From the NCBI GenBank assembly GCA_023014365.1, contig JAEBUN010000003.1, forward strand, positions 434,001 through 498,000: DNA of 64,000 bases, given 5' to 3'. How positions within the stretch are numbered: the stretch's first letter is position 1; every line of letters starts with the position of its first letter. This DNA is from Lepiota brunneoincarnata. Taxonomy: Eukaryota > Basidiomycota > Agaricomycetes > Agaricales > Agaricaceae. Shown here one piece after another: positions 18,998 through 51,614 of this stretch. Under the pieces are notes generated by a model. That model was not told the origin of the DNA, did not search any database, and saw only the letters and a list, made by a program, of their open reading frames with translations. Position numbers and translations under genes: made by a program.

Positions 18998-20297
18998 TGA
19001 TACGCCAATTTCACACCTATACATGAATTCCATACTCCGGAACGATTCTCTACATAGAATCATTGGCTATATCATTAAAAAACCCTACAGAGGATTGGTA
19101 CTATGTCCTGTAGTAGCCAGTTCAACCGAACTGAGGATATTTGAGCCTCGGAAGTGTTCAAACCAGCTCATTATCACTAAGCTTAGTGAACCAAGCTATC
19201 AGAACGCTCTCCGGAGGGATTCCGGACTTTACATAGCCTATCGAGTATACTCCAGTCACATCAAGGGACCTTACGAGCAGTTTTCTGATGAACTCGGATT
19301 TGTTGGAACCTAAAGAATGTACATAGCGGCTGTCGCAGGGGTATTATGCCCATAGCAAGCCCAATAATGATGACCAGACCATGGAACGGAACATCCAACG
19401 TTCGGGAGGCGACACCCGATGCCCAAAACCCTAGGCATATCAAAGACTCATAATTAACAAGTGCTTTGTGGGTCCTGGCACCTCGGCATACTGCCTGACT
19501 GAGATTAATTACAATGGATCAAGGGATTGTACATACGCCATACATTCCGATCATAATTGATCCGGAGGTTTAACGTGCTTGTGTGGACACAGAATAATGC
19601 AGACGAGCACGGAACATGTCTGGCTGGATTGCCATTCATCAATCAGAGAAAAACCCATAACCCAGGGCAAGGTAGAAATGCTGCCAAACCTTCCAAAATG
19701 TTCTACAGTACCTGTAACAATTAAGCTTATTGTTTTCTATTTCATATTTACTATCTCTCGTATGTATCTAAACAATATAAATATGGTTGCACTTGTTTGT
19801 GGAGAAGAAAGAGGTCTCACCCCCACTTTCACATGCAAGTCTGCAAGCTGTGATCAAGAACAGTTTCAGAGGGCTATTTAGTGTGCGTCATTAAGTGTGA
19901 TTTCTTCAGTCATTGACCAACCCAGAGACAGAGACAGAGACCAGAGTTCAGAGTTTAGAGTTCCAGAGTGCTAGAGACAGAGACAGAGACAGAGAACAGA
20001 GTTCAGAGACCAGAGACCAGAGTCTAGAGACCCCGCACTTTGAATTGACAGGGATTGTCCTTTCACTGTTGCACTGTATGGCTAAGATAACTTCAATGGC
20101 TGTTCGTTAACCTCTACAAACACTACTCTCTTGAATTTTGCTGTCAGAACGCACCCCCAGAACACCCTAAAAGACAAAACTGTTCATTATCTATCTCATA
20201 CTACTTGTATTAACTTAAGCTTATCGAACTTTGACTAAGCTTAGTGAGAACAAGCCATTTATCTATATTAAAACCCACGAACATTTCCACCTTTTCA
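18998..20297 (+). repeat. Family B 5' LTR (1300 bp)
   Basis: It starts TGATACGCC and ends CCTTTTCA. A TATAAAT box lies near 19776. A CAGAGA-rich low-complexity tract lies near 19920-20030. TAAGCTTA occurs at 19178, 19732, 20216 and 20236. It precedes a tRNA-type primer site and the B gag. Confidence 0.92.
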
Positions 20298-20299
20298 TC

Positions 20300-20316
20300 T
20301 GGAGCCCACCACGAGG
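20300..20316 (+). promoter_or_regulatory. Family B primer-binding site, tRNA type
   Basis: TGGAGCCCACCACGAGG begins two bases after the LTR. TGG is the complement of the CCA end of a tRNA. The C copy reads TGGAGCCCACTGTGAGG at 50311-50295 on the minus strand. The tRNA species was not identified. Confidence 0.6.
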
Positions 20317-20497
20317 GGGGTTTTCAGTTGAATTTCACGAGACAAACACCAAAAGCCTTGGACACTGGCCCGCCTTTCACCTGCAAAGCAGAAAAAGGTT
20401 CAAGCAAAGACCATAAAGTCACCCAAAACATCCTTCGAGAGCAGTCTCAGGAAGGTCAACCCCCCAAAACAGAGAACTACTCAGAATTCTAATTGTC

Positions 20498-22344
20498 CAG
20501 AAGGTTCTGAAGGCCTCATCACTGTTAGTACCTCTTGAAAGCAAAAAGATCCTACTAGTTCTATAACTGCGAGCACAGCGAGCGGTTTAGCAGTTGCAGT
20601 ATCGAGAGAAGTCGCACCGCCGATCTCTACTGCTCCCAGAATTACTATAAGGCTCCCAGCCTCAGCTTGCAACATAGCGCATATTCTGCACACTGAAAGC
20701 CAGGATGGTCAGACCGTTCCTATGCTAAGTTTAGCATTTACAAACCAAAACTCATTTCATACGAACCCTCCTGGTGCCTCTACAGTACCACAGATATCAC
20801 AGTCAACTCCGACTGTACAGACAAACCAAACTACGCCGTCTATGACGACTACAGCTAGTAAAATGGGACACGAGCGTATGCCAATTCCCTTTAGCAATAA
20901 TGCTCCCAGATAGGATGCATCAAAACCACAGACATTGAGAAATTATCTCTGGATGCTTGAACGGCTCTTCATGATAATGAAGACGACGGACGATGCAGAA
21001 AGGATAAATTGGGCAGTGTCATATGTGAACCAGGATATCCGTGAAGAGTGGATGAGTTTTGCGGAGTTCCCAGCAGGAAGCTGGACAGGCTTTGTAGAGA
21101 GATTGAAGAAAGAGTATCCCAAGACTGTGGCAGCCAAGCAGGGCTCAGTGCGACAATTGAGGGAACTCTGCACAGAGAGTAGAGGCATTGCGATGAATGA
21201 GGAGCATAGAGTCTTGGACTTCAAAAGGCGATTCATTCTAGAAGCAGAGAAGTGCCTGAAGTCACCAGCGGTAGTCTCGAACCGAGAGCTAGTCAAGTTA
21301 TTTACGAGCGCACTGGACTCCGTGTTCCAGGACGTACTCAATGCAAGATTAGCGATCACTGGGGTGCGTAGAACTGCAAGCGATGGGTCGGCACTAACTG
21401 CGAAGGATTTACACGAAGAGGACCCCTATGATTGGAGGATCATCATGGATAAAGCTGTTGAAATTTCAATTGGCAAAACACTTATGCGATCCCTTCATCA
21501 GGATTCAAGGCTGGTGAACTCGGCATCAATGAGCCATCCACCTGCGACATCCGGAACAGGGACTTATGACCCTGTAGTAAAGCAAGAGCTGCAAAGCTTA
21601 AAACAGAAGTTTCAGGATGAAGTCTCACAGATGGCAGGCAGTCTCGCTGAGCTTAAGGACCTCATGAATATCCAGGGGCATACTTTAAAATCATACTTAG
21701 AGAGTTTGGCGAAGGACGGACATAATCATGCAGGCTATAATCACGCTCAGAGGAATACCGGAAGTGGGCCAGCAGGGTTGCTTTCCGATCGCAAGTGTTT
21801 CTACTGTTGGTTATTGGGGCATAGTTGGTTATTCTGCCCGGACATGGAGGCGGATAAACAAGCTGGCCGAATTAGAGTCAAAGGGAACAAAATATATATG
21901 GGAGATGGCTCGAGTATCCCTCGAGGAGAAGGGCCTATTAAAGAGAAAGTGGCAAAGTACTATGCGACAAAGGGACAACTCTTCATTCAGGTACCAGAAC
22001 TGCTGGAGGTTGAGCCTGAGTTACCGCAAGTGCCAGCGGCAGCAGTGTTTGCACAGAAAGCGTTCCCGAGGTCAGAAAACCAAAGGTTGCCAGCGGAAGA
22101 AGAAATCCGCTGTCTGAAGCAGCGCATGGAGATGTTGGAAACAGCTGCCATCCACGCTGGGAGTGCCCCAAAGGTTAAGCTTATGACCAGAAAGGATGAT
22201 AATGTCGAGATACAGTCTTTGGCCGAGCAATTGGCCCAGATACAGGCTAAGCTTAGTGGTTTGACGGATGGTACGCCCTTGGCAAGCCAGTATTTGGACA
22301 CCAGGAGTGGCGCAAAGACTTGGAACTCGGAGTTGGGTTTCTAA
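20498..22344 (+). pseudogene. Family B Gag (copy B)
   Basis: The frame corresponds to the intact C copy. It is interrupted by TAG at 20911-20913, where C has Trp (TGG to TAG). From 20935 it stays open for 469 residues: a capsid-like region (RNYLWMLERLF, NWAVSYV, VLDFKRRFILEAEKC), a zinc knuckle CFYCWLLGHSWLFC (C-x2-C-x4-H-x4-C) near 21798, and a C-terminal region rich in Glu and Gln that may form a coiled coil. The stop TAA at 22342 follows a perfect slippery heptamer. Gag assembles the particle. Confidence 0.88.
22335..22341 (+). promoter_or_regulatory. Candidate -1 frameshift site, family B gag/pol
   Basis: G GGT TTC lies directly before the gag stop TAA and fits the X XXY YYZ rule perfectly. 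The -1 frame (GGG TTT CTA AAG) opens the protease region. The inverted copy C keeps the same heptamer at 48270-48276. Confidence 0.75.
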
Positions 22345-23837
22345 AGGGTTCAAGGAAGGAGCCGGCTCTAAAGAAGGTCGCCTTCACCAGAGGACAGACT
22401 CCTGAGGATGTGTTGGATTCCGAGCGATCAGAAGAATCAGAAAATGAGGAAATAGGGCAGACAACGGAGAAACCACCGCATGCAGCAGCAGGGGAATTAC
22501 CATATAAGAATGTGAAACCACTGCGCCCGGTCGTTGAGGTACCACCGCTGCCTGTCAGAAGGATGGAACCATCCAAGAAGGAGCCTGCGTATAACCACCA
22601 GGCCCCTATAGAGAGGAATGTCAATGTTGAGGAAGTACTCAGCAGGGTATTGAAGCAAGAAGCCTCAGTATCGCATGGAGAACTCTTGGCATTGTCACCT
22701 TTATACAGGAACGCTTATAGAGAGTGAATTATGAGAAAACGGGTACCCATGAGTCAAAGCTTAATAGCAGGAGTAGGGCCCAGGGATGATGATACAGAAG
22801 ATATAGAGATTAATAGTGGGCTGGTACAGGTTATGATAATGGAGTTGGCAGACGGCTGTTACCCGGGTTAGGGGTTTGCTCTTGAGTAGCACGGCGTTCG
22901 TGGCAGGATGTCTATACAGACTTGGTCCTGTCCTACTATGCATGACTTGGAGATGACAAAGCACTATAGTCCAGCCGGTTTAAGGGCAAAGAGATATAGG
23001 AGGCAAGAACTGTATAACACTAAGATAAGGATACAAGGTATTGTACTGTATCCTTATATACTTCTAAGTGTGGCTGTACTCCTACTATAATAGTTTGGAC
23101 CGGGGTAACTATGAGTCAGAGATAAGAAAACATGAGGCATATACTAAGAATAGTCCTTCTGATGTACACTACTGATGGTTTCATAGTGACATGGGAATGT
23201 GAACTAAAAGTAACCGTCCTTCTGATGTGGCTTCTGATAACAACGGCTCTCGGAAGTATGATACAGTGCTCCAAGAAGGCTCAGCAACGCAAGCCTGGGT
23301 AGCTCAGGATCCAATCATGCAGTACTTAGAGTCACTTCCCAGAAGAGACAGGGGACAGCAAGTGTTTATTGCTAAAGAATGCGAACCGTTGAGAGTAGTT
23401 CCAACTCTGATAAATGGGATTCGGCAGGAAGAGGCCTTGCTAGATAGTGGGTCACAGATCATATCTATGAGTCAGGAAGCGGTGATTGCATGTCAAGTTT
23501 CTTGGGACCCAGACACTACGATTAATTTGCAGAGTGCGAATGGGCAGGTTGAAAAGACTTGTGGGTTGGCAAAGAATGTAGGCTTTACCTGCGGGGGAGT
23601 CACAATCTATTTGCAAGTTCACATAGTTTGCAACCCCACATATTGAGTACTGCTGGGACGACCGTTTGATGTAATGACTGCTAGCGAAGTCAGGAATAGC
23701 GCCAGTGGTGAGCAAACCTTGGTTATTATGGACCCAAATACCAGAGAAAGGGCTGTGTTGCCAACTTATGCTCGAGGAGAGTGTAATCCTCTTAAGCTTA
23801 GAGAAAACAGTCAAAATTTTCAAGAAACCTTGATGAG
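22342..23837 (+). pseudogene. Family B pol: linker and aspartic protease (copy B)
   Basis: The -1 frame after gag encodes a Pro/Glu-rich linker, stopped by TGA at 22725-22727 (Arg in C). It is then cut by the solo E LTR at 22857. After the LTR the frame gives EEALLDSGSQIISMS (protease DSG at about 23445) and the CGGVTIYLQVHI strand, ending at TGA 23644 (CAG or CGA type). Further decayed frames lead to RT. The protease active site is intact but the frame is broken several times. Confidence 0.82.
22857..23242 (-). repeat. Solo LTR of family E in family B protease
   Basis: 386 bp, ends TGTTACCC...GATAACA on the plus strand, flanked by ACGGC (22852-22856 and 23243-23247). Orientation is opposite to the host element. 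Confidence 0.95.
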
Positions 23838-25944
23838 TTGACTAAGGGACAAGGAGAGGTGGCTTGTATAATAGACTATGATGATGAGAAGGGCCCTGTC
23901 GTCGCACAAACACTAAGCTTAGCGAAAGGAAGCTTCTCAGAGGCCGAGCTACAGCTAATGTTCATTGACCAAGTCATATGCGATGAGGACTGTCCACAAG
24001 AAGATAAAGCGATGGCGTTATTGTGCCTAGGACGCATAGCCAACGCGCAGGGCACAGAGGACCAGGGAATAACTGTCTTCAAAACAGAAGAAGATGACAA
24101 AGATACGGTACAATGCCTGGCTGGGAAGAAATATAAACCAGTAGCCTTAAAAGTGAGGCCAGTGTTGGGTGATCTACCAGAGAGATTTAGGATAAAATGA
24201 GAAATAAAAGGGGACCCACTGGCAGAAATGCCTGAGCTTAGCATGCATCCTCCAGAGTTTGTCCCGACAGGCAGATATACTGAGGAGCGTAAGCTTAAGC
24301 TGGACGAAGCCCATGCAGGGGATTTCTTGTGGCCAGAGGAAAGAAAGCTGATGCACCACATCATGATGCTTCAAGAAAAGGCATTCGCCTGGACAGATGA
24401 GGAAAAGGGATGTTTTAGGGAAGATTTCTTCCCGCCGATTGAGATACCGACGGTAGAACATACTCTGTGGGTTGAAAAGCCCATTCCAATTCCACCAGCA
24501 ATCTATGATGAAGTCTGTGCCATTATAAAAAGAAAGATTAGTGCTGGTGTATACGAGCCGTCGAACTCATCCTATAGATCCAGATGGTTCTGTGTGGTAA
24601 AGAAAGATGGAAAAAGTTTGAGACTGGTACACAGCTTGGAACTGCTGAACAGAGTAACAATAGCGCATTCAGGGCTGCTGCCAGCAACGGAAGATTTGGC
24701 GATGCACTTTGCAGGCAGGGCTTGTGGAGGCATCCTGGATCTGTATGTTGGATATGACGAGCGATTGTTAGCTGAGTCGTCTCGGGACTTAACAACGTTC
24801 CAGATGCCTTTTTGAGTGCTACACTTAGTGACGCTACCTATGGGATGGACCAATTCAGTGCCTATATTTCATGAGGATGTAACAGCGATCCTAGCCAGTG
24901 AGATACCAGAATACACGATGCCGTACATAGATGATGTACCTATCAGGGGACCGAAAACCAGATACGAGTTGCCAGATGGCACTGATGAGATGTTGAAAAA
25001 GAACCCAGGGATCCGACGATTTGTATGGGAACACATGCAGACGGTCAATAGGATTCTACAGAGGATGAAATATGTAGGGGGAACCTTCTCTGGGCCCAAA
25101 ACGACTATCTGCGCTGATGAAATCACCGTAGTGGGTTTTGAATGCTCCTATAAAGGATGGTTGCCCACCACAGACACCATCGGAAAAATTTTAAGATGGG
25201 GGGATTGCGAGAATGTCTCAGAGCTAAGGGGTTTTCTAGGAACCGCTATGCGCTGCAGGAATCATATCCCGAAGTTCATAGCCATTGCTGCACCTCTATA
25301 CGAAAAGCTTAAGAAGGGACAAGAGTTTGAATGGGGAGAAAACGAATGGAAAGCGCAGCAGGAGCTGAAAGATGCGATTCAGTGCTGTTTCCCGACCAGG
25401 AACCCCAAATTCACAAGTAAACAACCCATAGTAGTAGCCGTGGATACCTCATGGAGGGTGGTGGGATACTATATACATCAGAGAGATGTAGAAGATGCTA
25501 AGCTTATACATTATGCGAAGTTTGGGTCAATATTATTGGACGAGAGACAGCAGAGGTATTCTCAGCCCAAGCGAGAGCTATGCAGCTTAAGAATGGTGCT
25601 GGAACAGGAGAAATATTTATTGTGGGGATCGAGAAATCTAGTAGTGGAAACAGACGCGAAGTTTCTCTTTGGGATGTTAAACAACCCAGGAAAACTCCCG
25701 AACACTACTGTAAACCGTTGGGTGGACTTCATTAGATCGTTCCACTTCATGCTAGTACACAAAGAAGGGAAGACATTTGGGCCGGAGGGACTGTCCAGAC
25801 GACGTTACTATCTCGGTGATGAGACAGCCTGTTGTTTCAATGACGGATCTGAGGATGAGGGAGAGGAGTTTGAGTTGATCAAAGAAGATCCGGGGCTGCA
25901 GATCCATTACCCTTGGAAGCCTTCTGTGATGAGATTGACAGTCA
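23838..25944 (+). pseudogene. Family B pol: reverse transcriptase and RNase H (copy B)
   Basis: Frames 23838-24200, 24228-24815 and 24816-25944 form one domain with stops at 24198 and 24813. Motifs are IPPAIYDEVCAIIKRKI, SSYRSRWFCVVKKDGKSLRLVHSLE, LDLYVGYDE and the catalytic YIDD (near 24930). RNase H follows with AVDTSWRVVGYY, LVVETDAKFLFGM and the LVHKEGKTFGPEGLSR tail. YIDDVP in place of YMDD/YLDD is usual for this lineage. Integrase coding is interrupted at 25949 by element D. Identity to copy C is high (near 95% at the protein level by eye). Confidence 0.88.
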
Positions 25945-25949
25945 CTCTG

Positions 25950-26610
25950 TGTCATATCCATGCCAACTCAGAGTCTAATCATTTAAACTTCGGCTTCTCG
26001 ACTCCACGTGTGTTCCACACAACAACCCTCTGCCCTCTGACTCGGCCCCGACCTGCTCCGACCGCAACCCACTGCTCCGATCACGCGACCACCTCCACAC
26101 GTGCCATGGTCACCTGACCCTTGGTGTCTCATACCCCCGTCTCCATTTCCTGTCCGTAGTCAAGATACGTTATTAGTCTCCATACCTGTACCCGTTTCCA
26201 TTCCATTCGTAATCCGTTCGTAATCCGTTTGTAACTAGATCGGTCTCCGCTTCGCTCCGCACGTAGTCAGTACGAGTCATAGTTCATAAGGCCAGTAGTA
26301 TATATACCGTAGGTACTTGGCTTGTACTCCTCAGTCTGATAATCGAATCGAGCAGCGGACCAGCTCCCTGTTCTCTACCCTCTCCTCTCTTCTGCCTCGT
26401 TCTACTTTGGCCCCGACTTCCTGAAATACGGACTAGGACAGTAGGAGGGCACAGCACATACGCTGAGGCCGCAAGTCCAACCCCCCGCCCGACGTACTCC
26501 ACCTCGGTCCCGAAGTCTACGTACTGACTTCGCCCTGTCCCCCGGTTACCTTATATCAAGGATACCACCCCGACCCTCCGCTTCGGTCCCGACCCGCACC
26601 GGCTCTAACA
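25950..26610 (+). repeat. Family D 5' LTR
   Basis: It starts TGTCATATCC and ends CTCTAACA. The TATA box TATATATA lies at 26299-26306, 33-34 bp before the self-primer segment. Several CGGNCCCG motifs lie inside (26043, 26515, 26584). Confidence 0.95.
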
Positions 26611-26612
26611 GT

Positions 26613-26623
26613 ATTATCAGACT
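26613..26623 (+). promoter_or_regulatory. Family D self-priming primer-binding site
   Basis: ATTATCAGACT, two bases after the LTR, is the exact reverse complement of AGTCTGATAAT at 26333-26343, the predicted transcript start 34 bp after the TATA box. This indicates Tf1/sushi-type self-priming. Confidence 0.75.
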
Positions 26624-26663
26624 CACACTCCTCCTGTCCACCACACTCTGAATCTTTCTAACC

Positions 26664-28064
26664 ATGGTCTCTCGAACAGTTACCCGTACTCGCACTCTGG
26701 TAACTCCAGCCGCTCGCCGTAGCAAACGCATCACTCGACAACCTCCTTCCGAGGAACTGCAACCCGACTCCCCAAGGGCTTCTCGCTCTCACTGACAATC
26801 TATCGCGCCCTCGACCCCAGACCAGTTCTCTGAAGATATACAACCTTCAGTATTCCGGACTCCCGATGGCCCCGACGACGGCCCCAACCCCAATCCTGAT
26901 CCCAGCGACCCTGGTGATCCCGATGACTATCCTGACAATGGGGACGGGCCCCCGGGCGATGACGAACCATCAGACAACGGCGACAACAACAACAACATTC
27001 CACCTGGCAACACCCGAGACAACCATGATAGACTCATACTCCGAGTTTTCCAATGCATAGCCAATCAAATGGACGGCCGTGGGAACTCTCAAGCCCCACA
27101 GCCTCCTCGAACTCCCCGTACCAAAGCTCGCGAACCTGACATCTTTACAGGTTCCGACCCCGCCAAACTCAAACCCTTCCTCTTCCAATGCCGACTCTAT
27201 TTCCGTACCAACCCAGCCCAGTTTGCTATCCCCGCCACCAAGGTCAACTTCGCGTTGACATACCTCACAGGCGTGGCACAGCAACACTTTGAAATCGGCC
27301 TCGACGAGGCCGACAACCACGGAATAATACACGACTGGATCGAGGACTGGGACCAGTTCACCCTGGAACTCAAGACCAATTTCGGTCCTGCGGATCCGAC
27401 CGGAGAAGCTGCTGAGCAGCTCGACTCCCTCCGAATGCGCTACGACGAGAAGATCGCCGTCTACAACGTCGACTTTCTCCGCCTAGCTGGCCAACTCCGC
27501 TGGGGTGACGAAGTATTTTGTCACCGCTACTACAAAGGCCTCCCCGACCGCATCCAGGACATTCTGTCCAATCGGCCTGACGGCAAGCCCGACACCTTCA
27601 TCGAAATGCGAGCAGCAGCAATGAAGATCGACGCTTGCTACTGGGAGCGCCAACGCGAGAAGGCCTGCGCCAAATCCGCTTCGGACCCGACTGCCTCTAG
27701 GAAACCTGGAGGTAACCCATCCCCTTCCACCTCGATCAACCCGCAACCTGCCGCCAAGCCTGCCAATAATAACAGAGGCAGCACGCCCAACACCAGCTTC
27801 AAGGGCAATCTGCCCAACCCGTCCGCCGGTCAGAAATCGGCCCCGCCCAAATCCGACCTTACTAGTAAACTTGGTAAGGACGGTAAATTAACCCCCGAGG
27901 AATGTCAACGACGTTTCGACAATAACCTCTGCCTTGTCTGCGCAGATCCCAATCACAGGGCTGCCAACTGCGACAAGAAGAAATTCCCTGATGCCAAGGC
28001 TAAAGGCCGACAGGCTCAGCTCCCCAAGACAGACGCGCCGACTCTCCCAAGCTCGGAAAAATAG
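26664..28064 (+). pseudogene. Family D Gag, one in-frame stop
   Basis: A single frame of 466 codons runs from ATG 26664 to TAG 28062 with one TGA at 26793-26795 (codon 44), probably a former CGA. An ATG at 27069 in the same frame opens 331 uninterrupted residues that hold all the recognisable domains. The N-terminus is basic, then comes an Asp/Pro/Asn-rich linker, then the capsid-like domain (FLFQCRLYFRT, FALTYLTGVAQQHF, RLAGQLRWGDEVFCHRYYKG). A perfect zinc knuckle CLVCADPNHRAANC lies near codons 420-436. The gag stop abuts a slippery run. Confidence 0.92.
28055..28061 (+). promoter_or_regulatory. Candidate -1 frameshift site, family D gag/pol
   Basis: G GAA AAA is followed at once by the gag stop TAG. 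Slipping -1 gives GGA AAA ATA GTC, which opens the whole pol frame. The first triplet is GGA, not three identical bases, as in the family E site. Confidence 0.55.
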
Positions 28065-31000: not shown

Positions 31001-31864
31001 CGCTCATTGGGACAAGCCCTCGACATGAAACTACACTTCACTTCGGGCTACCACCCAGAAGGCGACGGACAGACGGAACGCACCAACCAGACCCTGGAAC
31101 AATACCTCCGGGTCTACTGTAACTACCAACAGGACAATTGGTCCGAATTACTACCGCTAGCTGAGTTTGCTTACAACAACGCTCCTAGTGCCACCACCGG
31201 TATCTCCCCGTTCTTCGCTAATAAAGGATACCATCCAAACATCACAGTTCATCCTGAACGCGATCTCGCCTCCACTCGGGCCCGCCATTTTGCTGTTGAC
31301 CTCGACGACCTACATACCACCTTGAAGTCTGAAATAGTGCTAGCCCAGCAATGCTATCAGACCTCCACCGACGTCCGCCGACTCCCCGCCCCGGACTTCA
31401 AGGTCGGACAAAAGGTATTCGTGAAAGCCCAATTTTTCCGCACCACCCGTCCTTCCAAAAAACTCTCCGAAAAGTTCCTTGGACCTTACGAGATCATTGC
31501 CCAAGCAGGGACTCACTCCTTCACACTCCGACTTCCTGATTCCATGTGTGGAGTACACCCAGTCTTCCATGTTTCTATGCTTGAACCGGCCACACCTAAT
31601 ACCATACCAGCCCGATCGGACCCGCCACCTGCACCAGTTTCTATCGACGGCGAACCAGAATACGAGATCGCTCGCATCGTCGACTCAAAGATTGATCGGC
31701 GCCGCGCATGCAAACTCCTCTACAAAGTCATTTGGTTAGGTTATGAAGACACCGAAGAAGAGTCTTCGTGGTTACCGGCTACTGAGCTTGAACATGCCAT
31801 AGATTTAGTAGAGGCTTTCCATTCCTCTTACCCCGCTAAGCCTGGCCCCCTCCATTCACTCTGA
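28061..31864 (+). pseudogene. Family D Pol (protease-RT-RNase H-integrase-chromodomain), one in-frame stop
   Basis: The frame spans 1268 codons. Protease has ALVDSGSTHCFVD (codon ~84). RT has FVKKKDGSLHLCVDFRGLN and YLDD (~463). RNase H has KTDASDYALAAIL (~610) and ends KPDALTR, where a TGA at 30248-30250 (a former CGA) stops translation. The same frame continues with the HHCC domain (HFGQNKT..., CKSCVTC), catalytic residues in SMDFIEKLP, TSDRGSEF and QTERTNQ, and a chromodomain (~1200-1256, YKVIWLGYEDTEEESSW). All catalytic residues are intact, so only this stop and the gag stop separate it from a complete coding set. Confidence 0.94.
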
Positions 31865-31923
31865 ATTTTCCGCTGACCACCCACTACACCAAGAAACAAA
31901 AAAAATTTATTGGACAAGTACAA

Positions 31924-32676: not shown

Positions 32677-32743
32677 CGGTTCTTCCGACGGACAGCTCGA
32701 CAAGGCCCCGGCCTAGACCGCCTTGGGCCTCAAGGCTCGGCCC

Positions 32744-32754: not shown

Positions 32755-32757
32755 CAC

Positions 32758-33418: not shown

Positions 33419-33423
33419 CTCTG

Positions 33424-39154: not shown

Positions 39155-39277
39155 AATCTTGTTATTGGGCCTTTTAAATGTCCCAAGGTCTCGTTTCATC
39201 CCTTTCGTTCTCCCTCTCACTTCTTACTCGTCTATCCTGCTCGCATACTCACTTTTTAACGCCCACTTCTATCAACA

Positions 39278-41304: not shown

Positions 41305-41990
41305 TCTCTGCACCTAGTTTACTTCTTGGATGTAGTATATAATCTTGTCATGTATATACATCCCAATAGTCATCTTGTTGTTCCTTGTCTCCTACTGAGT
41401 TAAGCTAAACTGTTTCTGACTTTCTTGTCATCTCCTAAAGCTAAGCTAAAGACCTCCTGGGAGACTCCTAAGCTAGTTTAGGTTGCCAGTCACTTATATA
41501 CTCATTATATGCCTCTCTGATCTATCAGTGATGTTTATTGACATCTCAGCGCACCATGACCCGCAACGCGTAGTGACCCAGTCATCCGTTCTGGGTTTCT
41601 TACAAGCCTGGACCCAAACCAGCCTGTACACGGTGTTTGCTGCGAAAAAGGTCATGTCAAACAAAACTGAAGTGCCACTTGCGCCACTTGGGGCCCATCT
41701 CCCCCTAGCCAAATGGAAATTGGTGCCCTCACCATTCCATCAGAATCCCTGTGCACACTGATAACCACGAGACCCTGGCGACATGTTACCTAATAAGGCA
41801 ACCGTGGTTCAGCTAGTCTGTCAAAGGCTGGCTACTCAAGATTACAGGTTTCCTAGGCCTCTTAGGTCATAAGCTTAGGGTGGAGGGTGCTTTTCATCCC
41901 CTCGTCATGATTCAACATCACTGCCCCCAGCCTTTTCTTATAAAAGTGAGGGAGTGATGCCTCATTCTAGCAGACATTCTTCGTAAGAAA
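41305..41990. other. Spacer between the antisense genes in element C
   Basis: No gene recognised. It should contain the end signals of antisense gene 1 and the promoter of antisense gene 2. One TAAGCTTA lies at 41870. It mirrors 37781-38428. Confidence 0.5.
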
Positions 41991-43350
41991 ATGGCTTCAT
42001 CTATCCCCAACCTTCAAGTTGAGCTCGACGATCTCATCAGCAATGCCAAAGGTCGTCTTCAGCGCCTGCTAAACGGTCAAGTCGCTCGTCCCCTCGTCGA
42101 GAAGGCTCTCCTTGCGTTCGATGCCCCTGGGGTATGTCTATTCTTTCCATGCTTCTCTCACCATTCCTCAATCATTTCTAGTCTGCTTATATTGAAGCGT
42201 TATTGGAGGATAACAAGGCTATCAAGCTTCATGTCAACCAGGACTACATCTTCCGTATTTGCAAGCTCTACAAAATTTACCAAAACAACTACCATTCGTC
42301 TTATGAGGTGCCCATGATCTATAAGGCGCTCTCTGAGTGCTGTAGCCGCATTAATTGCATTCACTCTGAAGAATCCCACAAAACCCGGACCAAAGAGGCT
42401 CAGAACCCATCGTCCACGACTGGCTCTCCTTCCTCTAATGTTGCTGAAGGCTCTGCTGTCCCCAAACACATAAGCTTAGCATTCTTTTGGCTTTAATCAT
42501 CTTCTTATGTATAAGCTTAGCCTCACAAGGGTCGCAAGGCCCCTGTCTCTGCTGCTGTTGTGGTAGACACCGATACCAAGCCTGCGGAGAGTATGAACAG
42601 TGCCTCCAACTCCCAAGCAACTGGTGCTGACACAGTAATCTAGCTGCTTCTCAACCTATCACATTGGCTGAGATCATCGCTCGCCTTCAGGACATGATGG
42701 TCGATGAGGAGGTCTCTCAAGCTGTCGTTGAAGAGGTTCGTGTAGTTCTGCCTTATCGCAAGCGTCGTTTGTCTACTTCCGCAATGGTGCACCAGCTCCA
42801 CTCCCCCCAACCACTGATCCTGACTTCCTCCCTCTTTAGGAGACTGTCAAAAAGTCCTCATCGTCTAAAGGCACCGTCCGTCTTCTTCCCTATTGTCAAG
42901 TTCCCAATATGAACACTAAACACTGCTGTTATGTCTGGGCTGAACAGGTTCTAGCCAAAGCCAGCACCAATACTGCCAAGCGTGCCCGTACCGAGTCTGC
43001 TTCTGATGAGTGCACCTTCGCAGGCTTATCCGGTGGGCAATTTCTCACTTCTGTTCGCTAAGCTTAGCGGTTCTGACACTTGTTCCAGGCAGCTCGTTTG
43101 CTCCAGGAACTCCAAAACCTCCTGTCTCACTCTTGCGATGAGTACGAGTCCGAATCTCACAGTGACAATGCTTGGGCTGTCAAATGCGACCTCAATTCGC
43201 TCAGCCGGGACTTCATCGAGGCTATTCCCTCGCTCGAAGCTAACTTAAAGAGGTTCCAATTCCTTATTCAAGAGCACATCTGTCTCAAAAGTCTTTTGTG
43301 CAACCTTTCCAACTTGAAAAAGCCCTTACCGCTTAAGCTTAATGCTTTTA
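41991..43350 (+). pseudogene. Antisense gene 2 of element C
   Basis: Exon 1 (41991-42131) encodes MASSIPNLQVELDDLISNAK...; the intron 42132-42181 has GTATGT and CTAG borders. Exon 2 (42182-42470) encodes IEALLEDNKAIKLHVNQDYI and a Cys-containing ALSECCSRINC segment. The next donor reads CACATAAGC where copy B has CGCGTAAGC, so GT became AT. Later exons (KGRKAPVSAAVVVDTDTK, ITLAEIIARLQDMMVDEEVS, and a C-terminal AARLLQELQNLLSHSCDEYES block to about 43350) are readable with frame changes. It has a mixed helical, charged composition. No known family was recognised. Confidence 0.6.
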
Positions 43351-43412
43351 CAGTCCCTAGGATAGTTTTCCTTCGATAAGTAGATAGTTCTGTCCACAAT
43401 ATCAGGTTTTTT

Positions 43413-45195
43413 CTATCCTCCCAACTCTTCTGGCTCCCATCTGTCACTAGGCTCATCCTCAGTAGTCTCCTCCAGGGTCTTCAGTCCCTCTGATGACAGA
43501 TCTATCAACTCTTGTAACTCCAGCGGCAATGGCATATGTTTTCTGGCTAAGTAGGGAATTACTCTGAACGCCACCACTTTATTCTGCCATACAGAACCAT
43601 CCAACTCTACCAGGATATAAGATCCTCCCTTTGATCTAGATATGACCACCATGGGTCCTAGATACCTGGGTTTCATCTTCCTGTCTGCTGAGCTCTCTAT
43701 TGCTGTATTTCGCACTAATACTAAATCTCCCGGGCCGAAGCAATAATCTTTTATCTTATGCGCTGCTTGTCATTCCATCTCCCAAGCCTTGTTAAGCTTA
43801 GTGTCTGAAACACACTGACGCATCTCCTCAACATGCCAAACATGTTTTGCTAAAGCCTGAGCTCAATATCCTATCAACCCGGCCGTGGTCAAGTACTTAT
43901 TGGTAGCTGCACTAGCCAAGTGGCCTCTTTGACATCCAAAGGTAGCATCGGGTGCGCTCCAGTTACCAAAAAGTACAGGGAACACCCCATTCCTTTTCTA
44001 ATGGTGATCTGATCTGCCCACATAATGTGCAGTAGGTGCCAATACCACTTTTTGATGTCTCCATCTGTAGCTTTGTACAACATTTGTCACACATCCCAGT
44101 GGGGTCACTCAATAATCCCGTTCGCCTTGGAATTGTAAGGAGATATCATTACTCCCTTTATCCCATATTTTTCATCCAGCCACCAAACAGCTTTCTTAAA
44201 TGGAGAACCGTTGTCCGTGACAATCTTCACTATACAGCCCCATTGGCAAATGATATCTTCAAATAACCACTGTGCGATCAAACTGGCATTCTCTTTTCTC
44301 AACGCTCTTGCCTCCATCCAGGATGACAGTCCACACCTTCCATGCACAATATAACTACACCCATTAGAACTTGGCGTCATATGTAGTGTGTCCACATGTA
44401 GCACTTGGAATATCAACGGCATGGGCATTACTATTGGCGGCATCTCAATGATCACCTTTTGCTGTTGCTGGCATAGATGGCACGATTGCACATACCAAGC
44501 TACGTCTCCTTCAACTTCCGGCCACCAGAACCTCTGCATTATAAGCTTAGTGGTTGCGTATTTTCCTCTGTGTCCTAGGAAGTTGTGGCTGGCTCGCAAC
44601 ATATACATACATTGCTCCTTATCCACTACTAGCTGATGCTGACTGCTAGGGCTCATCCTATACAGTCTCCCCTCTTTGTCCAAGAAGAAATGCTCCACCA
44701 TATGCTTAAGCTTACGCAGATCTGGCTCATCCAAGCCTTCAGCTGCACTACTGTCCCCTGTTTTCAGGTATTCCCTGACTTTGGGTATTCTTTTGTCTTG
44801 TATTTGCGCTGTATCTGTCCTGCGCGACTCATCATATGCTTCCTTTATCTCGGTCAACTTTTCCTCTTCAAAATCTGGCACTAGCCTGACATCCGTCATT
44901 AAGCTTAGTACTTGTCAATGGTTTTCTGGACAGGCTGGGTCTTCTATAACCCTAAGCTTAGCCTGTTGTTCATCCAAGTACTCTTCCCAAGCTTGATCCA
45001 GCTCATACTCGAAATCATACACATCACGCGCCAGACCCTGGTTGAAGCCAGAGCGACTGTCAATCTCATCGCAGAAGGCTTCCAAGGGTAAAGGATCTGC
45101 GGCCCCTGGATCTTCTTTGATCAATTCGAACTCCTCTCCCTCATCCTCGGATCCATCGTCAAAGTGACAGGCTGTCTCATCACCGGGATAGTAGC
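43413..45195 (-). pseudogene. Element C pol: integrase
   Basis: It reads from 45124 down with FNQGLARDVYDFEYELDQ, a TGA at about 44914 (Arg site), then 264 open residues (44899-44105) holding HNFLGHRGKY...CHLCQQ and the three catalytic residues in VLHVDTLHM, VTDNGSPF and [12 protein letters not shown] then interrupts IIE(R). The C-terminal part (44083-43889, 43715-43413) is frameshifted but matches copy B. It shows the empty site (GCGC) of the solo LTR and the empty site of element D present in copy B. Confidence 0.88.
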
Positions 45196-45196
45196 G

Positions 45197-46771
45197 TCAC
45201 CTGGACAGTCCATCTGGTCCAAAGGTCTTCCCTTCTTTGTGTACTAGCATGAAGTGGAACGATCTAATGAAGTCCACCCAGCGGTTTACTGTAGCGTTTG
45301 GGAGCTTTTCTGGGTTGTTTAACATCCCAAAGAGAAACTTCGCATCTGTTTCCACCACTAAGTTTCTTGATCCCCACAGTAAATATTTCTCTTGTTCCAG
45401 CACCATTCTTAAGCCGCATAGCTCTCACTTGGGCTGAGAGTATCTCTGCTGTCTTTCATCCAATAATATTGACCCAAACTTCACATAATGTATAAGCTTA
45501 GGGTCTTCTCCATCTCACTGATATATGTAGTATCCCACTGCCCTCCATGAGGTATCCACGGCTACTACTATGGGTTGTTTACTCAGGAATTTGGGGTTCC
45601 TGGTCGGGAAACAGCATTGAATCGCATCTTTCAGCTCCTGCTGCGCTTTCCATTCATTTTCTCCCCATTCAAACTCTTGCCCTTTCTTAAGCTTTTTGTA
45701 TAGAGGTGCAGCAATGGCTATGAACTTCGGGATATGATTCCTGCAGCGCGTAGCTGTTCCTAGAAAACCCCTTAGCTTGGAGACATTCTCGCAATCCCCC
45801 CATCTTAATATCTTCCCAATGGTGTCTGTGGCAGGCAACCGTCCTTTATAAGAGCATTCAAAACCCACTACGGTGATTTCATCAGCGCAGATAGTTGTCT
45901 TGGGCCCAGAGAAGGTTCCTCCTACGTATTTCATCCTCTGTAGAATCCTATTGACCGTCTGCATGTGTTCCCATACAAATCGTCGGATCCCTGGGTTTTC
46001 TTTCAGCATCTCTTCCATGCCATCTGGCAACTCATATCTAGTTTTTGGTCCTCTGATAGGTACATCATCTATGTACGGCATTGTGTATTCTGGTATCTCA
46101 CTGGCTAGGATCGCTGTTACATCCTCATGAAATATAGGCACTGAATTGGTCCATCCCATGGGTAATGTCACTAAGCGTAGCGCTCCAAAAGGCATCTGGA
46201 ACGTTGTTAAGTCCCGAGATGACTCAGCTAACAGTTGCTCATCATAGCCAACATATAGGTCCAGAATGCCTCTGCAAGCTCTGCCTGCGAAGTGCATTGC
46301 CAAATCTTCTGTTGCTGGTGGCAGTCCTGAATGTGCTATCATCACTCTGTTCAGCGGTTCCAAGCTGTGTACCAGTCTCAAACTTTTCCCATCTTTCTTC
46401 ACCACACAGAACCATCTGGATCTATAGGATGAGTTTGATGGCTCGTATACACCAGCACTAATCTTTCTCTTTATAATGGCACAAACTTCATCATAGATTG
46501 CTGGTGGAATCGGAATGGGCTTCTCAACCCACGGAGTATGTTCTACCATCGGTATCTCGATCAGCAGGAAGAAGTCTTCCCTAAAACATCCCCTCTCCTC
46601 ATCTGTCCATGCAAATGCCCTTTCTTGAAGCATCATGACCTGGTGCATCAGCTTTCTCTCTTCTGGCCACAAGAAATCCCCTGCATGGGCTTCGTCCAGC
46701 TTAAGCTTACACTCCTCCATATATCTGCCTGTCGGGGCAAACTCTGGCGGATGCATGCTAAGCTTAGGCAT
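45197..46771 (-). pseudogene. Element C pol: reverse transcriptase and RNase H
   Basis: 418 residues are open at 46771-45515 with IPPAIYDEVCAIIKRKI, SSYRSRWFCVVKKDGKSLRL, PFGALRLVTLPMGWTNS, YIDDVP and RNase H AVDTSWRAVGYYIYQ. A stop after that block (TGA at about 45512-45514) separates it from the RNase H tail (45406-45197; ETDAKFLFGMLNNP, HKEGKTFGPDGLSR). All RT catalytic residues are intact. Upstream of 46771 the frame has a TGA-type break before the protease region. Confidence 0.9.
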
Positions 46772-46798
46772 TCCTGCCAGTGGATCCCCTTTTATTTC

Positions 46799-48291
46799 TC
46801 ATTTTATCCTAAATCTCTCTGGTAGATCACCCAACACTGGCCTCACTTTTAAAGTGACTGGTTTATATTTCTTCCCAGCCAGGCATTGTACAGTATCTTT
46901 GTCATCCCCTTCAGTTTCAAAGACAGTTATTCCCTGACCCTCCGTATCCTGTGCGTTGGCGATGTGCCCTAGGCACAATAATGCTGTTGCTTTATCTTCC
47001 TGTGGGCAGTCCTCATCGCATATGACTTGGTCAATGAACATTAGCTGTAGCTCGGCCTCTGAGAAGCTTCCTTTTGCTAAGCTTAGTGTTTGTGCAATGA
47101 CAGGGCCCTTCTCATCATCATAGTCTCTTATACAAGCCACCTCTCCTTGTCCCTCAATCAACTCATTGAGGTTTCTTGAAAATTTTGACTGTTTTCCCTA
47201 AGCCTAGGAGGATTACACTCTCCTCAAGCATAAGTTGGTAACACAGCCCTTTCTCTGGTATTTGGGTCCGTAATAACCAAGGTTTGCTTGCCACTGGCGC
47301 TATTCCTGACTTCGCTAGCCATCATTACATCAAAGGGTCGTCCCAGGAGTACTTGATACGCGGGGTTATGAACAATGTGAACTTGCAAATAGATTGTGAC
47401 TCCCCCACAGGTAAAGCCTATGTTCTTTGCCAATCCACAAGTCTTTTAAACCTGCCCATTTGCACTCTGCAAATTTATCGTAGTATCTGGGTCCCAAGAA
47501 ACTTGACATGCAATTGCCGCTTCCTAACTCATGAAGACAATCTGTGACCCACTATCTAGCAAGGCCTCTTCCTGCCAAATCCCATTTATCAGAGTTGGCA
47601 CTACTCTCAACGGCTCACATTCTTTCGCAATAAACACTTGCCGTCCCCTGTCTCTTTGGGGCAGTGACTCCAAGTACTGCATGATTGGATCCTGAGCTAC
47701 CCAGGCTTGGGTTGCCGAGCCTTCTCGGAGCACCATATCATATTTCCGAGGACCATCTGCTAGCTCCGTTATCATGACTTGTACTGGCCCACTATTAATC
47801 TCTATATCTTCTGTATCATCGTCCCTGGGCCCTACTCCTGCTATTAAGCTTTGACTTGTGGGTACCTGTTTTCTCATAATGCGCTCTCTATAAGCATTCC
47901 TGTATATCGGTGATAATGCCAAGAGTTCTCCATGTGATACTGAGGCTTCTTGCTTCAATACCCTGCTGAGTACTTCCTCAACATCAACATTCCTCTCTAT
48001 AGGGGCCTGGTGCTTATACACAGGCTCCTTCTTGGATGGTTCCATCCTTCTGACAGGCAGTGGTGGTACCTCAACAACTGGGCACAGTGGTTTCACATTT
48101 TCATATGGTAATTCTCCTGCTGCAGCATGCATTGGTTTCTCCGTTGTCTGCCCTATTTCCTCATTTTCTGATTCATCTGATTGCTCAGAATCCGACACGT
48201 CCTCAGGAGTCTGTCCTCTGGCGAAGGCGACCTTCTTCTTCAGAGTTGGCTCCTTCCTCGAACCCTTTAGAAACCCGACTCTGAGTTCCAA
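46799..48291 (-). pseudogene. Element C pol: linker and aspartic protease
   Basis: In the -1 frame after gag, 255 residues are open (48291-47524): an acidic/Pro-rich linker, then EEALLDSGSQIVFMS with the DSG triad, ended by TAG where copy B has Gln (CAG to TAG). Frames 47433-47224 and 47161-46799 continue the protease fold (CGGVTIYLQVHIVHNP, LLGRPFDV) and a conserved spacer. There is no LTR insertion here, showing the empty site for the E LTR in copy B. Confidence 0.85.
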
Positions 48292-50009
48292 GTCTTTGCG
48301 CCACTTCTGGTGTCCAAATACTGGCTTGCCGAGGGCGTACCATCCGTCAAACTGCTAAGCTTAGCCTGTATCTGGGCCAATTGCTCGGCCAAAGACTGTA
48401 TTTCGATGTTATCCTCCTTCCTGGTCATAAGCTTAACCTTTGGGGCACTCCCAGCATGGATGGCAGCTGTCTCCAACATTTCCATGTGCTGCTTCAGACG
48501 ATAGACTTCTTCTTCTGCTGGTGACCTTTGGTTTTCTGACCTTGGGAACGCTCTCTGTGCAAACACCGCTGACATTGGCACTTGCGGTAACTCAGGCTCA
48601 ACCTCCGGCAGTTCTGGTATCTGAACGAAGAGTTGTCCCTTTGTCGCATAGTACTTTGCCACTTTCTCTTTAATAGGCCCTTCTCCTCGAGGGATACTCG
48701 AGCCATCTCCCATATATATTTTGTTCCCTTTGACTCTAATTCGGCCAGCTTGTTTATCCGCCTCCATGTCTGGGCAGAATAACCAACTATGCCCTAATAA
48801 CCAGCAGTAGAAACACTTGCGGTCGGAAAGCGACCCTGCTGACCCACTTCCGGTATTCCTCTGAGCGTGATTATAACCGGCATGATTATGTCTGTCTTTT
48901 GCCAAGCTCTCTAAGTATGATTTTAAAGTATGCCCCTGGATATTCATGAGGTCCTTAAGCTCAGCAAGGCCACCTGCCTTCTGCGAGACTTCATCCTGAA
49001 ATTTCTGCTTTAAGCTTTGCAGCTCTCGCTTTACTACCAGGTCATAAGTCCCTGTTCCGGACGTCACAGGTGGATGGCTCATCGATGCCGAGTTCACCAG
49101 CCTTGAATCCTGATGAAGGGATCGCATAAGTGTTTTGCGAATCAAAATTTCGACAGCTTTATCCACGACGATCCTCCAATCATAGGGGTCCTCTTCGCAT
49201 AAATCCTTCGCAGTCAGTGCCGACCCATCGCTTGCGGTTCTATGCGCCCTGGGGATCGCTAATCTCGCATTGAGTACATCCTGGAACACCAAGTCCAGTG
49301 CGCTCGTAAATAACTCGACTAGTTCTCGGTTTGAGACTACCGTCAGCGACTTCAGACACTTCTCTGCTTCAAGAATGAATTGCCTTTTAAAGTCCAAGAC
49401 TTTATGCTCCTCATTCATCGCAATGCCTCTACTCTCTGCACAGAGTTCCCTCAAGCGTCGCACTGAACCCTGCTCAGCTGCCACAGTCTCGGGGTACTCT
49501 TTCTTTAATCTCTCTATGAAGCCTGTCCAGCTTCCTGCTAGGAACTCCGCAAAACTCATCCACTCTTCATGGATATCCTGGTCCACATATGACACTGCCC
49601 AATTTATTCTTTCTGCCTCATCCATCATCTTCGTTATTGTGAAGAGACGTTCCAGCATCCAGAGATAATTTCTCAATGTCTGTGGTTTGGATGCATCCCA
49701 TCTGGGAGCATTATTGCTAAAGGGAATTGGCATATGCTCGTGTCCCATTTTTCTAGCTGTAGTTGTCGTCAATGGTGTATTTTGGTTTGTCTGTACAGTT
49801 GGAGTTGACTGTGATATTTCTGGTACCGTAGAGGCACCAGGAGGGTTTGTATGAAATGAGTTTTGATTTGGTAAGGCTAAGCTTAGCATAGGAATGGTCT
49901 GACCATCCTGATTTTCGGTGTGCAGTATATGCGCTATGTTGCGAGCTGAGGCTGGAAGCCTTATAGTAATTCTGGGAGCAGTAGAGATCGGCGGTACGGC
50001 TTCTCTCAA
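48267..50009 (-). CDS. Element C Gag
   Basis: The 580-residue frame from ATG 50009 to TAA is uninterrupted. It has a Ser/Thr/Asn-rich N-terminus, a capsid-like region (LRNYLWMLERLF, NWAVSYVDQDI, VLDFKRQFILEAEKC), a coiled-coil-like stretch, a zinc knuckle CFYCWLLGHSWLFC near residue 396, and a Glu/Gln-rich C-terminus. The frame is also open upstream of the ATG to about 50290 without another ATG, so the true start may be non-AUG or upstream. The stop follows the slippery GGGTTTC at 48276-48270. It is the best preserved gag of the family here. Confidence 0.92.
   Translation of the reverse strand: MREAVPPISTAPRITIRLPASARNIAHILHTENQDGQTIPMLSLALPNQNSFHTNPPGASTVPEISQSTPTVQTNQNTPLTTTTARKMGHEHMPIPFSNNAPRWDASKPQTLRNYLWMLERLFTITKMMDEAERINWAVSYVDQDIHEEWMSFAEFLAGSWTGFIERLKKEYPETVAAEQGSVRRLRELCAESRGIAMNEEHKVLDFKRQFILEAEKCLKSLTVVSNRELVELFTSALDLVFQDVLNARLAIPRAHRTASDGSALTAKDLCEEDPYDWRIVVDKAVEILIRKTLMRSLHQDSRLVNSASMSHPPVTSGTGTYDLVVKRELQSLKQKFQDEVSQKAGGLAELKDLMNIQGHTLKSYLESLAKDRHNHAGYNHAQRNTGSGSAGSLSDRKCFYCWLLGHSWLFCPDMEADKQAGRIRVKGNKIYMGDGSSIPRGEGPIKEKVAKYYATKGQLFVQIPELPEVEPELPQVPMSAVFAQRAFPRSENQRSPAEEEVYRLKQHMEMLETAAIHAGSAPKVKLMTRKEDNIEIQSLAEQLAQIQAKLSSLTDGTPSASQYLDTRSGAKTWNSESGF
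48270..48276 (-). promoter_or_regulatory. Candidate -1 frameshift site, element C gag/pol
   Basis: On the minus strand G GGT TTC is followed directly by the gag stop TAA, as in copy B at 22335-22341. The -1 frame is the linker-protease frame. Confidence 0.75.
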
Positions 50010-50294
50010 TACTGCAACTGCTGAACCACTCGCTGTGTTCGCAGCTAAAGAGTTAACGGGATCTTTTTGCTTTTGAGAGGTACTAGCGGCGATGAGGCCT
50101 TCAGAACCTTCTGGACGATTGGAATTCCGAGTAGTTCTCAGTTTTGGGGGGTTGACCTTCCTGAGACTGCTCTCAAAGGACGTTTTGGGTGACTTTACGG
50201 TCTTTGCTTGAACCTTTTTCTGCTTTGCAGGTGAAAGGCAGGCCAGTGTCCAAGTCTTTTGGTGTTTATCTCGTGAAATTCAACTGAAAACCCC

Positions 50295-50311
50295 CCTCAC
50301 AGTGGGCTCCA
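50295..50311 (-). promoter_or_regulatory. Element C primer-binding site, tRNA type
   Basis: TGGAGCCCACTGTGAGG begins two bases inside from the LTR. It differs from copy B only in the right half, where B has CpG-type changes. Confidence 0.6.
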
Positions 50312-50313
50312 GA

Positions 50314-51614
50314 TGAAAAGGTAGAAACTTTCGTAGGTTTTAATATAGATAGTGGGCTTGTTTTCACTAAGCTTAGCCGCAATTCGATAAGCTTAAGCTA
50401 ATACAAGTGGAATGAGATAGATAATGAACAGTTTCGTCTTTTAGGGTGTTCTGGGGGTGCATTCTGACAGCGAAATTCAAGAGAGTAGTGTTTTTAGAGG
50501 TTAACGAACAGCCGTTGAAGTTATCTTAGCCGTACGGTGCAACAATGAAAGGACAATCCCTGTCAGTTCAAAGTGCGGGGTCTCTGGTCTCTGGTCTCTG
50601 GTCTCTGAACTCTGGTCTCTGTCTCTGTCTCTGTCTCTAGCACTCTGGAACTCTAAACTCTGAACTCTGGTCTCTGTCTCTGTCTCTGGGTTGGTCAATG
50701 ACTGAAGAAATCACACTTAACGATGCACACTAAATAGCCCTCTGAAACTGTTCTTGATCACGGCTTGCAGACTTGCATGTGGAAGCAGGGGTGAGACCTC
50801 TTGCTTCTCCACAAACAAGTGCGACTGTATTTATATTGTTTAGATACATACGGGAGATAGTAAATATGAAATAGAAAACAATAAGCTTAATTGTTACAGG
50901 CACTGTAGAACATTTTGGAAGGTTTGGCAGCATTTCTACCTCACCCTGGGTTATGGGTTTTTCTCTGATTAACGAATGGCAATCCAGCCAGACGTGTTCC
51001 ATGCTCATCTGCATTATTCTGCATCCACGCAAGCACGTTAAGTTTCCGGATCAATTATGATCAGAATGTATAGCGGATGGACAATTCCTTGATCCGTTGT
51101 AATTAATCTCAGTTAAGCAGTATGCTGAAGTGCCGGGACCCACAAAGCACTCGTTAATTAGGAGTCTTTGATATTTCTAGGGTTTTGGGCATTGGGTATT
51201 GCCTCCTGAACGTTGGACGTTCCGTTCCATGGTCCGGTCATCATTATTGAACTTGCTATAGACGTAATACGCCTGTGACAGCCGCTAGGTACATTCTTTT
51301 ATGTTCAAACGCATTCGGGTTCATCAGAGAACTGCTCGTAAGGTCCCTTGATGCAACCGGGGTATACTTGATAGGCTATGTAGAGTCCTGAATCCCTCCG
51401 GAGAGCGTTCTGATAGCTTGGTTCACTAAGCTTAGTGATAATGAACTGGTTTGAACACGTCCGAGGCTCGAGTATCCTCAATTCAGTTGAACTGGCTACT
51501 ACGGGATATAGTACCAATCCTCTATAGAGTTCTTTAATGATATAGCCAATGATTCTATGTAGAGAATCATTCCAGAGTATGGAATTCATGTATAGGCATG
51601 AAATTGGCATATCA
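50314..51614 (-). repeat. Element C 5' LTR (family B)
   Basis: 1301 bp, from TGAAAAGG to GCATATCA on the plus strand. Four TAAGCTTA palindromes (50368, 50388, 50882, 51427). It abuts an unrelated chromodomain element (G) at 51615. Confidence 0.92.

Follow-up and report, generated by a model that had tools for sequence, protein, structure and literature searches.

An eight-letter palindrome, TAAGCTTA, saturates one Gypsy LTR-retrotransposon family of the fungus Lepiota brunneoincarnata and, among the sequences examined, is restricted to that family. The window analysed here comprises 64,000 nt (assembly GCA_023014365.1, contig JAEBUN010000003.1, positions 434,001-498,000, forward strand). It contains 49 exact sites, the same count as in the preliminary description, and self-comparison of the window placed all 49 within this family and none in the rest, as had been claimed. 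Our main reading, to which we give a probability of about 0.55, is that TAAGCTTA is the site of an element-encoded sequence-specific DNA-binding protein, most likely the product of antisense gene 1, that keeps the family expressed.

The element has LTRs, a reverse transcriptase (RT)-RNase H and an integrase, and copies of the family are spread over many contigs. In the window, the sites belong to four units: a solo LTR (4), copy B itself (19), an LTR nested in copy B (4) and copy C (22). Copy B is devoid of its 3' end and 3' LTR, and copy C of the final ~205 bp of the internal region and the 3' LTR. Four sites were found in 29 of 32 LTR copies and three in the remaining 3. The span initially given for the phenomenon (18998-51614) does enclose family sites, but leaves out the four of the solo LTR. 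The positions bear out that LTR, coding and intron sequences all carry the word.

Coordinates of the family copies, their antisense genes and the TAAGCTTA sites in the window.
Feature	Position	Strand	Remarks
Solo LTR of the TAAGCTTA family	6714-8013	-	Sites 6768, 6788, 7282, 7826
Copy B, whole extent	18998-39155	+	19 sites of its own
Copy B 5' LTR	18998-20297	+	Sites 19178, 19722, 20216, 20236 (LTR positions 181, 725, 1219, 1239)
Copy B internal, gag region	20298-22855	+	Assigned by position, no Pfam match; sites 22176, 22248
Copy B internal, protease to RNase H region	23249-25949	+	Sites 23793, 23914, 24290, 25499
Nested element interrupting copy B	25950-33418
Copy B internal, resuming 3' of nested element	33419-33666	+	Site 33512
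Family solo LTR nested in copy B	33667-34957	-	Sites 33721, 33741, 34225, 34770
Copy B internal, integrase and antisense-gene region	34956-39155	+	Sites 35053, 35218, 35968, 36427, 36703, 37250, 37291, 37892
Copy C, whole extent	39156-51614	-	22 sites
Copy C internal	39156-50313	-	Sites 40013, 41870, 42471, 42512, 43059, 43334, 43793, 44542, 44707, 44900, 44953, 45493, 46702, 46759, 47078, 48356, 48428, 49878
Antisense gene 1, copy C	39278-41304	+	Six predicted exons; one of six cysteines lost in copy C
TAAGCTTA site in gene 1 intron 3	40013-40020	.	Overlaps 5' splice site (GTAAGCTTAG)
Gene 1 exon 5	40729-40914	+	Zn2Cys6-like cysteine domain
Antisense gene 2, copy C, probable	41500-43400	+	Approximate limits, candidate exons
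Copy C integrase frame	44108-44914	-	Integrase_H2C2, rve
Copy C reverse transcriptase frame	45518-46798	-
Copy C gag frame	48270-50279	-	Assigned by position, no Pfam match
Copy C 5' LTR	50314-51614	-	Sites 50368, 50388, 50882, 51427

One hundred dinucleotide-preserving shuffles of the window gave a mean of 0.79 TAAGCTTA and a maximum of 5, against the 49 observed, in line with the earlier estimate of about one by chance. Genome-wide, the word occurs 5370 times, its reversed form 842 times, and TTAGCTAA, a palindrome of equal composition, 419 times. CTAAGCTTAG is present 2011 times and its reversed form 39 times. TAAGCTTA is missing from an order-6 Markov ranking of 8-mers, since the 7-mers within it are themselves in excess; the nulls relied on instead were shuffles and codon shuffles. 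When the window was pooled with 30 LTR loci, 202 sites fell in 90.9 kb of family sequence and 6 in the 102 kb remainder, so the family specificity proposed at the outset stood. Five of these six sites lie ~130 bp beyond an LTR. Loci L034 and L035 have a site ~130 bp ahead of the 3' LTR, in a part absent from copies B and C; the five were paired with these two sites by position rather than by alignment. The word was also sought in related families, as previously suggested. In six loci of related Gypsy lineages from the same genome (65.9 kb) no TAAGCTTA was found, and every 8-base palindrome was present at most three times. The single sister element covered from LTR to LTR had neither TAAGCTTA nor antisense genes. 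A scan of viral contigs with RT found nothing.

Codon effects and tandem repeats do not explain the saturation. The sense coding sequence of copy C holds 10 sites in 2133 codons (nine stretches), compared with a mean of 0.16 and a maximum of 2 in 2000 synonymous-codon shuffles; the claim that codons are not responsible thus survived a codon-preserving null. The sites are single words, spaced about as irregularly as random ones (CV 0.89). In the B-C alignment, 14 of 18 internal sites were common to both copies, including the pairs described as conserved (22248/48356, 22176/48428 and 33512/44953), which proved homologous. The other four were present in one copy only, each lost through a single transition, in keeping with the decay noted earlier. 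Shared variants were found at none of 32 motif columns in LTRs (background 3.1%) and none of 56 in the 3' region (background 6.2%). L051, an old copy covered over 2 kb and 20% diverged outside CpG, carries the word at a position where it is absent from three other copies. It has this one site and has lost another by C to T, and its gene 1 and cysteine pattern have decayed. In a CpG-protection test on four alignments, CpG decay near sites was no slower than elsewhere. At one RT site the motif encodes L where homologues have E (63), D (23) or L (2) among the 108 residues listed. At this position, therefore, the DNA word seems to have counted for more than the protein residue. For sites with comparable homologues, the word arose through substitution in place.

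These data bear on two readings that dispense with a DNA-binding protein. Without any selection, the word could have spread through repeat expansion, small insertions or mutation bias. Some stretches centred on the motif do resemble one another beyond its eight bases (as in 5 copies of 28 bases, 68-79% identical) and C is favoured immediately outside it (25/46), but the sole tandem array detected in copy C by Tandem Repeats Finder has a 7-base unit without the motif, the two RT sites align gap-free to their homologues, and words with a single mismatch are scarce (14 in 18.2 kb, compared with 35 exact ones). This makes neutral spread extremely improbable. Only slightly more credible, and still very improbable, is a role of the palindrome in RNA. 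Retroviruses use self-complementary loops for genome dimerisation or packaging, and the sites are spread along a transcribed element. However, when 88-base stretches of copy C were folded, the motif was unpaired no more often than randomly chosen positions (0.44 vs 0.45 sense, 0.44 vs 0.50 antisense), and introns of the antisense genes also hold sites.

Antisense gene 1 lies between pol and the 3' LTR, antisense to gag-pol, and is conserved in many copies. Its predicted product has 584 aa. Between loci L034 and L047, dN/dS was 0.14 at a dS of 0.59, and 0.05 for the C-terminal part, which holds the cysteines; judged from these ratios, gene 1 is under purifying selection. Six cysteines in Zn2Cys6 spacing (C-x2-C-x6-C-x(5-16)-C-x2-C-x(6-9)-C) were found in seven of eight aligned copies, and in L047 and L048. 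The predicted model of exon 5 has two short helices, and its 16 Foldseek matches, every one of them weak, were all fungal Zn2Cys6-type regulators. The Pfam Zn_clus score was 16.6 bits (E 0.0085), below the cut-off of 21; zf-ChsH2 reached 24.4 bits (cut-off 23.2) over just 17 of 37 model positions. The Zn2Cys6-like domain is probably DNA-binding. PDB sequence searches gave no credible match and NCBIfam no match; a protein search with gene 1, limited to candidates of about its spliced length, retained 0 of 1382 at E 0.001. Exon 5 has 133 matches across the genome, and its diverged relatives (61-77% identity) include C60:120568, C18:15777, C37:202803, C1:3278031 and C52:168293. A homologue without recognisable gag-pol (L050) had no motif in 4.5 kb, and a further 1 kb candidate (L052) turned out to be other sequence.

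Saturation with TAAGCTTA, together with an antisense DNA-binding-like protein, suggests that the element tags its DNA for recognition by a protein of its own. The gene 1 product would recognise TAAGCTTA through its Zn2Cys6-like domain, probably as a dimer on the inverted repeat. Sites would be selected individually along LTRs, gag, pol, introns and spacers. Coating of the family's DNA by the protein would maintain its expression, whether through simple transcriptional activation or by fending off host silencing. A fuller version, in which the antisense protein coats the element through a palindrome that the element has spread over its whole length, coding sequence included, thereby tagging this DNA as self and protecting it from methylation-based silencing, is advanced more tentatively, at somewhat less than even odds.

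The reader of the motif might be another protein. Accumulated sites might recruit a host DNA-binding protein (a transcription factor, an insulator or a replication or chromosome-structure protein), the antisense genes doing something else. Any beneficial binding protein would be expected to leave the same pattern, LTRs carry sites as well as the element body, and binding by gene 1 is itself inferred. Nevertheless, we consider a host reader unlikely, since the related Gypsy lineages share its genome and nucleus and lack the word in their 65.9 kb, with no 8-base palindrome more than three times, and since few isolated sites occur elsewhere (1 to 6 in 102 kb). More doubtful still is a reading by the product of antisense gene 2, or by both antisense proteins together. 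Gene 2 adjoins gene 1 and some of its candidate exons seem constrained (crude ratios of 0.27, 0.29 and 0.44), but its model is provisional, other candidate frames in the region have ratios of ~0.6 or higher, and no Pfam DNA-binding domain was found in the exon pieces tested.

The family supplies a candidate binding domain and its candidate target word, along with a sister element that has neither of them. If self-binding is true, VANDALs are not the only transposons with sequence-specific self-recognition, and looking for short words that saturate a transposable-element family would be a general route to such systems. The fuller version would amount to a convergent VANC/VANDAL counterpart in another element class and kingdom, and an antisense accessory gene of an LTR retrotransposon would thereby gain a function. 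A limited literature search found no such system, although prior publication is possible.

Fungal Zn2Cys6 (GAL4-type) domains recognise sites with CGG triplets, whereas the site proposed for gene 1 is TAAG/CTTA. Gene 1 resembles these domains in its six-cysteine spacing and, more tentatively, in the two short helices of its model and in its fold matches, all of them weak; it differs in its sub-threshold Pfam score and in being retrotransposon-encoded. With the antisense elements termed aORF-3R it shares position, antisense orientation, presence in many copies and sequence constraint. As far as those elements are described, they are reported without known function or similarity; unlike them, gene 1 encodes a cysteine domain that can be recognised, is predicted to contain introns and comes with a candidate target word.

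VANDALs are Mutator-like DNA transposons, whereas the present family is a fungal Gypsy LTR retrotransposon. As far as the accounts of Arabidopsis VANC/VANDAL describe them, VANC motifs lie in non-coding parts and are multiplied by tandem repeat formation (PMC5735166, PMC10398659). Relative to these accounts, the likeness drawn in the preliminary description holds for a short word that is enriched in a single transposon family but not in its relatives, and for an element-encoded candidate DNA-binding protein, here under purifying selection with a Zn2Cys6-like domain. It does not extend to the sites, which form an exact palindrome, also occupy coding sequence (10 in the sense frames of copy C) and stand as single, non-tandem words. 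The gene 1 protein is also of an unrelated type, and binding and hypomethylation are here only proposed. VANC serves well as a working model; on the main reading the family would work like VANC/VANDAL, though it is no member of that group.

The window contained 49 exact copies of the 8-base palindrome TAAGCTTA, against a mean of 0.79 and a maximum of 5 in 100 dinucleotide shuffles. Self-comparison placed all 49 inside one Gypsy LTR-retrotransposon family and, when the window was combined with 30 LTR loci, 202 sites fell in 90.9 kb of family DNA versus 6 in the remaining 102 kb. Thus, both the excess over chance and the restriction to one family claimed in the preliminary description were confirmed. 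Five of the six non-family sites lay outside an LTR at a distance of about 130 bp. At that distance, family copies L034 and L035 have a site before the 3' LTR; the segment with that site is missing from copies B and C, the two incomplete copies in the window. The stretch C1:734456-749726 held 27 sites, LTRs included, and its 3' two thirds correspond to locus L031. Over the whole genome (55.6 Mb), TAAGCTTA occurred 5370 times versus 842 for its reversed word and 419 for the equal-composition palindrome TTAGCTAA; CTAAGCTTAG was found 2011 times versus 39 when reversed.

In L031, L034 and L035 the element comprises a 5' LTR, gag, protease, RT-RNase H and integrase in sense, then about 4.3 kb of opposite-strand reading frames, about 205 bp and the 3' LTR. 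Pfam matches were obtained to RT_RNaseH, Integrase_H2C2 and rve, and weakly to SH3_Tf2-1; the gag frames had no Pfam match and were assigned from position. The RT had 1089 homologues at E 0.001, with Meripilus lineatus and Grifola frondosa among the 120 matches listed, so that the host is probably an agaricomycete. Copies B and C are joined tail to tail at 39155/39156 as an inverted pair, each without a 3' LTR, and B lacks the final 1.4 kb that C retains. The LTR of copy C carries 16 copies of the 7-base unit GGTCTCT (50579-50689). A different family contributes a repeat with four copies (92-98% identical), one of them lying in copy B.

Retrotransposon copies and repeats located in the window
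Feature	Positions	Strand	Interruptions	Basis
Family LTR, ~1300 bp	6714-8013, 18998-20297, 33667-34957, 50314-51614			self-comparison
Copy B	18998-39155	plus	22856-23248, 25950-33418, 33667-34957	
Copy C	51614-39156	minus		self-comparison
~386-bp repeat	8018-8403, 16392-16777, 22857-23242, 58998-59384			self-comparison

Related Gypsy lineages (sisters) were located by protein searches with one homologue and one sister pol as queries. Six sister loci (L039+L040, L041, L043-L046; 65.9 kb including flanks, with L041 and L043, 99.4% alike, both counted) were free of TAAGCTTA, and no palindrome of eight bases exceeded three occurrences. The seven sites of L042 all lay within a piece of the saturated family. 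The only sister read from LTR to LTR, on contig C7 (7.67 kb; 697-bp LTRs, 99.7% alike), has its integrase directly adjoining the 3' LTR and lacks the antisense genes; at none of the other sister loci were both LTRs found. The cysteine pattern of gene 1, one of two predicted antisense genes of the saturated family, was absent from every frame of the sister loci. Beside its sister element, L044 carries Spt5-like frames (645-1625 and 1950-2858, plus strand; NGN, KOW, CTD). The first has 16 genome matches, several 88-99% identical, and therefore appears to be an Spt5 derivative that is multicopy or carried by a transposon.

That the sites are no codon effect, as previously stated, was borne out by 2000 synonymous-codon shuffles of copy C: nine sense stretches totalling 2133 codons hold 10 sites, against a mean of 0.16 and a maximum of 2 in the shuffles. 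A tandem-array search of copy C found a single array, with a 7-base unit and without TAAGCTTA. Two RT sites aligned gap-free to 120 homologues; at one, the motif encodes L, where homologues have E (63), D (23) or L (2) among 108 residues listed. Of five pol sites compared with three sister pol proteins, three aligned gap-free, one lay beside a one-residue gap and one was unalignable. These alignments indicate that at least some words arose in place by substitution. Ungapped repeat searches found motif-centred stretches similar past the word (e.g. five of 28 bases, 68-79%), and the base directly flanking it was preferentially C (25/46); thus, the complete site may exceed eight bases.

In a 32-copy LTR alignment (L052 and others outside), CpG columns diverged about 20-fold more than never-CpG columns (0.249 vs 0.0116). 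Because CpG is hypermutable in this family, comparisons were restricted to never-CpG positions. Motif columns diverged less than this background in the LTRs (0.0029 vs 0.0116) and in the 3' region of 10 copies (0.0036 vs 0.0255). None of 32 (LTRs) or 56 (3' region) motif columns had shared variants, versus 3.1% and 6.2% of background (joint probability about 0.01, assuming independent columns). Whole-word conservation, a weak test, gave P 0.08 in the LTRs (0.14 against A+T-matched words) and 0.049 in the 3' region; a weak signal is expected, since most copies are decaying. Many sites are indeed common to B and C (14/18 kept), but control words already reach 66.7%. Gene 1 intron 3 starts with GTAAGCTTA, nine of nine bases being kept in L047 versus 21/47 other aligned bases, although its first bases are also a splice site and four other introns retain 8-9 of the first nine; the motif copy at 40013-40020 of the window thus doubles as the 5' splice site of this intron (GTAAGCTTAG). 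In L051, an old copy with 20% divergence outside CpG, the beginning of intron 4 carries TAAGCTTA, which is absent there from L034, L047 and L048; at the place equivalent to the 41870 site, L051 differs from the word by a single C-to-T change. The gene 1-gene 2 spacer contains the word in L047, TAAGCTTG in L048 and L049, and other sequence in L034 and copy C. Individual sites are thus gained and lost while the word stays constant.

We propose that some protein reads TAAGCTTA and that the element would gain from being read along its entire length; the inverted repeat would fit dimeric binding. The best candidate reader is the gene 1 product, which is constrained, DNA-binding-like and element-encoded; the main rival is a host protein. 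Binding of the gene 1 product could activate the element through four LTR sites, or shield all of it against silencing. The C-to-T decay at CpG points to methylation of this family by the host. CpG decay near sites was no slower than elsewhere and does not support anti-silencing, though decayed copies may fail to show protection. Gene 1 in L047 (5081-7295) is 80-83% identical to that of L034, versus 92-95% for pol parts of the same copies, so its alleles look older or swapped between subfamilies. A gene 1 homologue in L050 (250-1475; C35:356700-361199), about 60% identical, retains the six cysteines, with no recognisable gag-pol in the surrounding 4.5 kb; a similar match lies at C60:120568. 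A host-derived origin or a domesticated copy is possible for the L050 homologue.

Gene 1 lies between pol and the 3' LTR, a position it shares with the antisense ORFs of unknown function described in PMC7264820. VANC21 binds YAGTATTAY outside the coding sequence of VANDAL21, and the motifs there expanded through tandem repeats (PMC5735166; also PMC10398659). The fungal family differs in three defining features: its element class, sites in coding sequence too, and the lack of tandem repeats containing the motif. What stands of the resemblance to VANC/VANDAL drawn in the preliminary description is the proposed way of working, in which the fungal system would function like its Arabidopsis counterpart.
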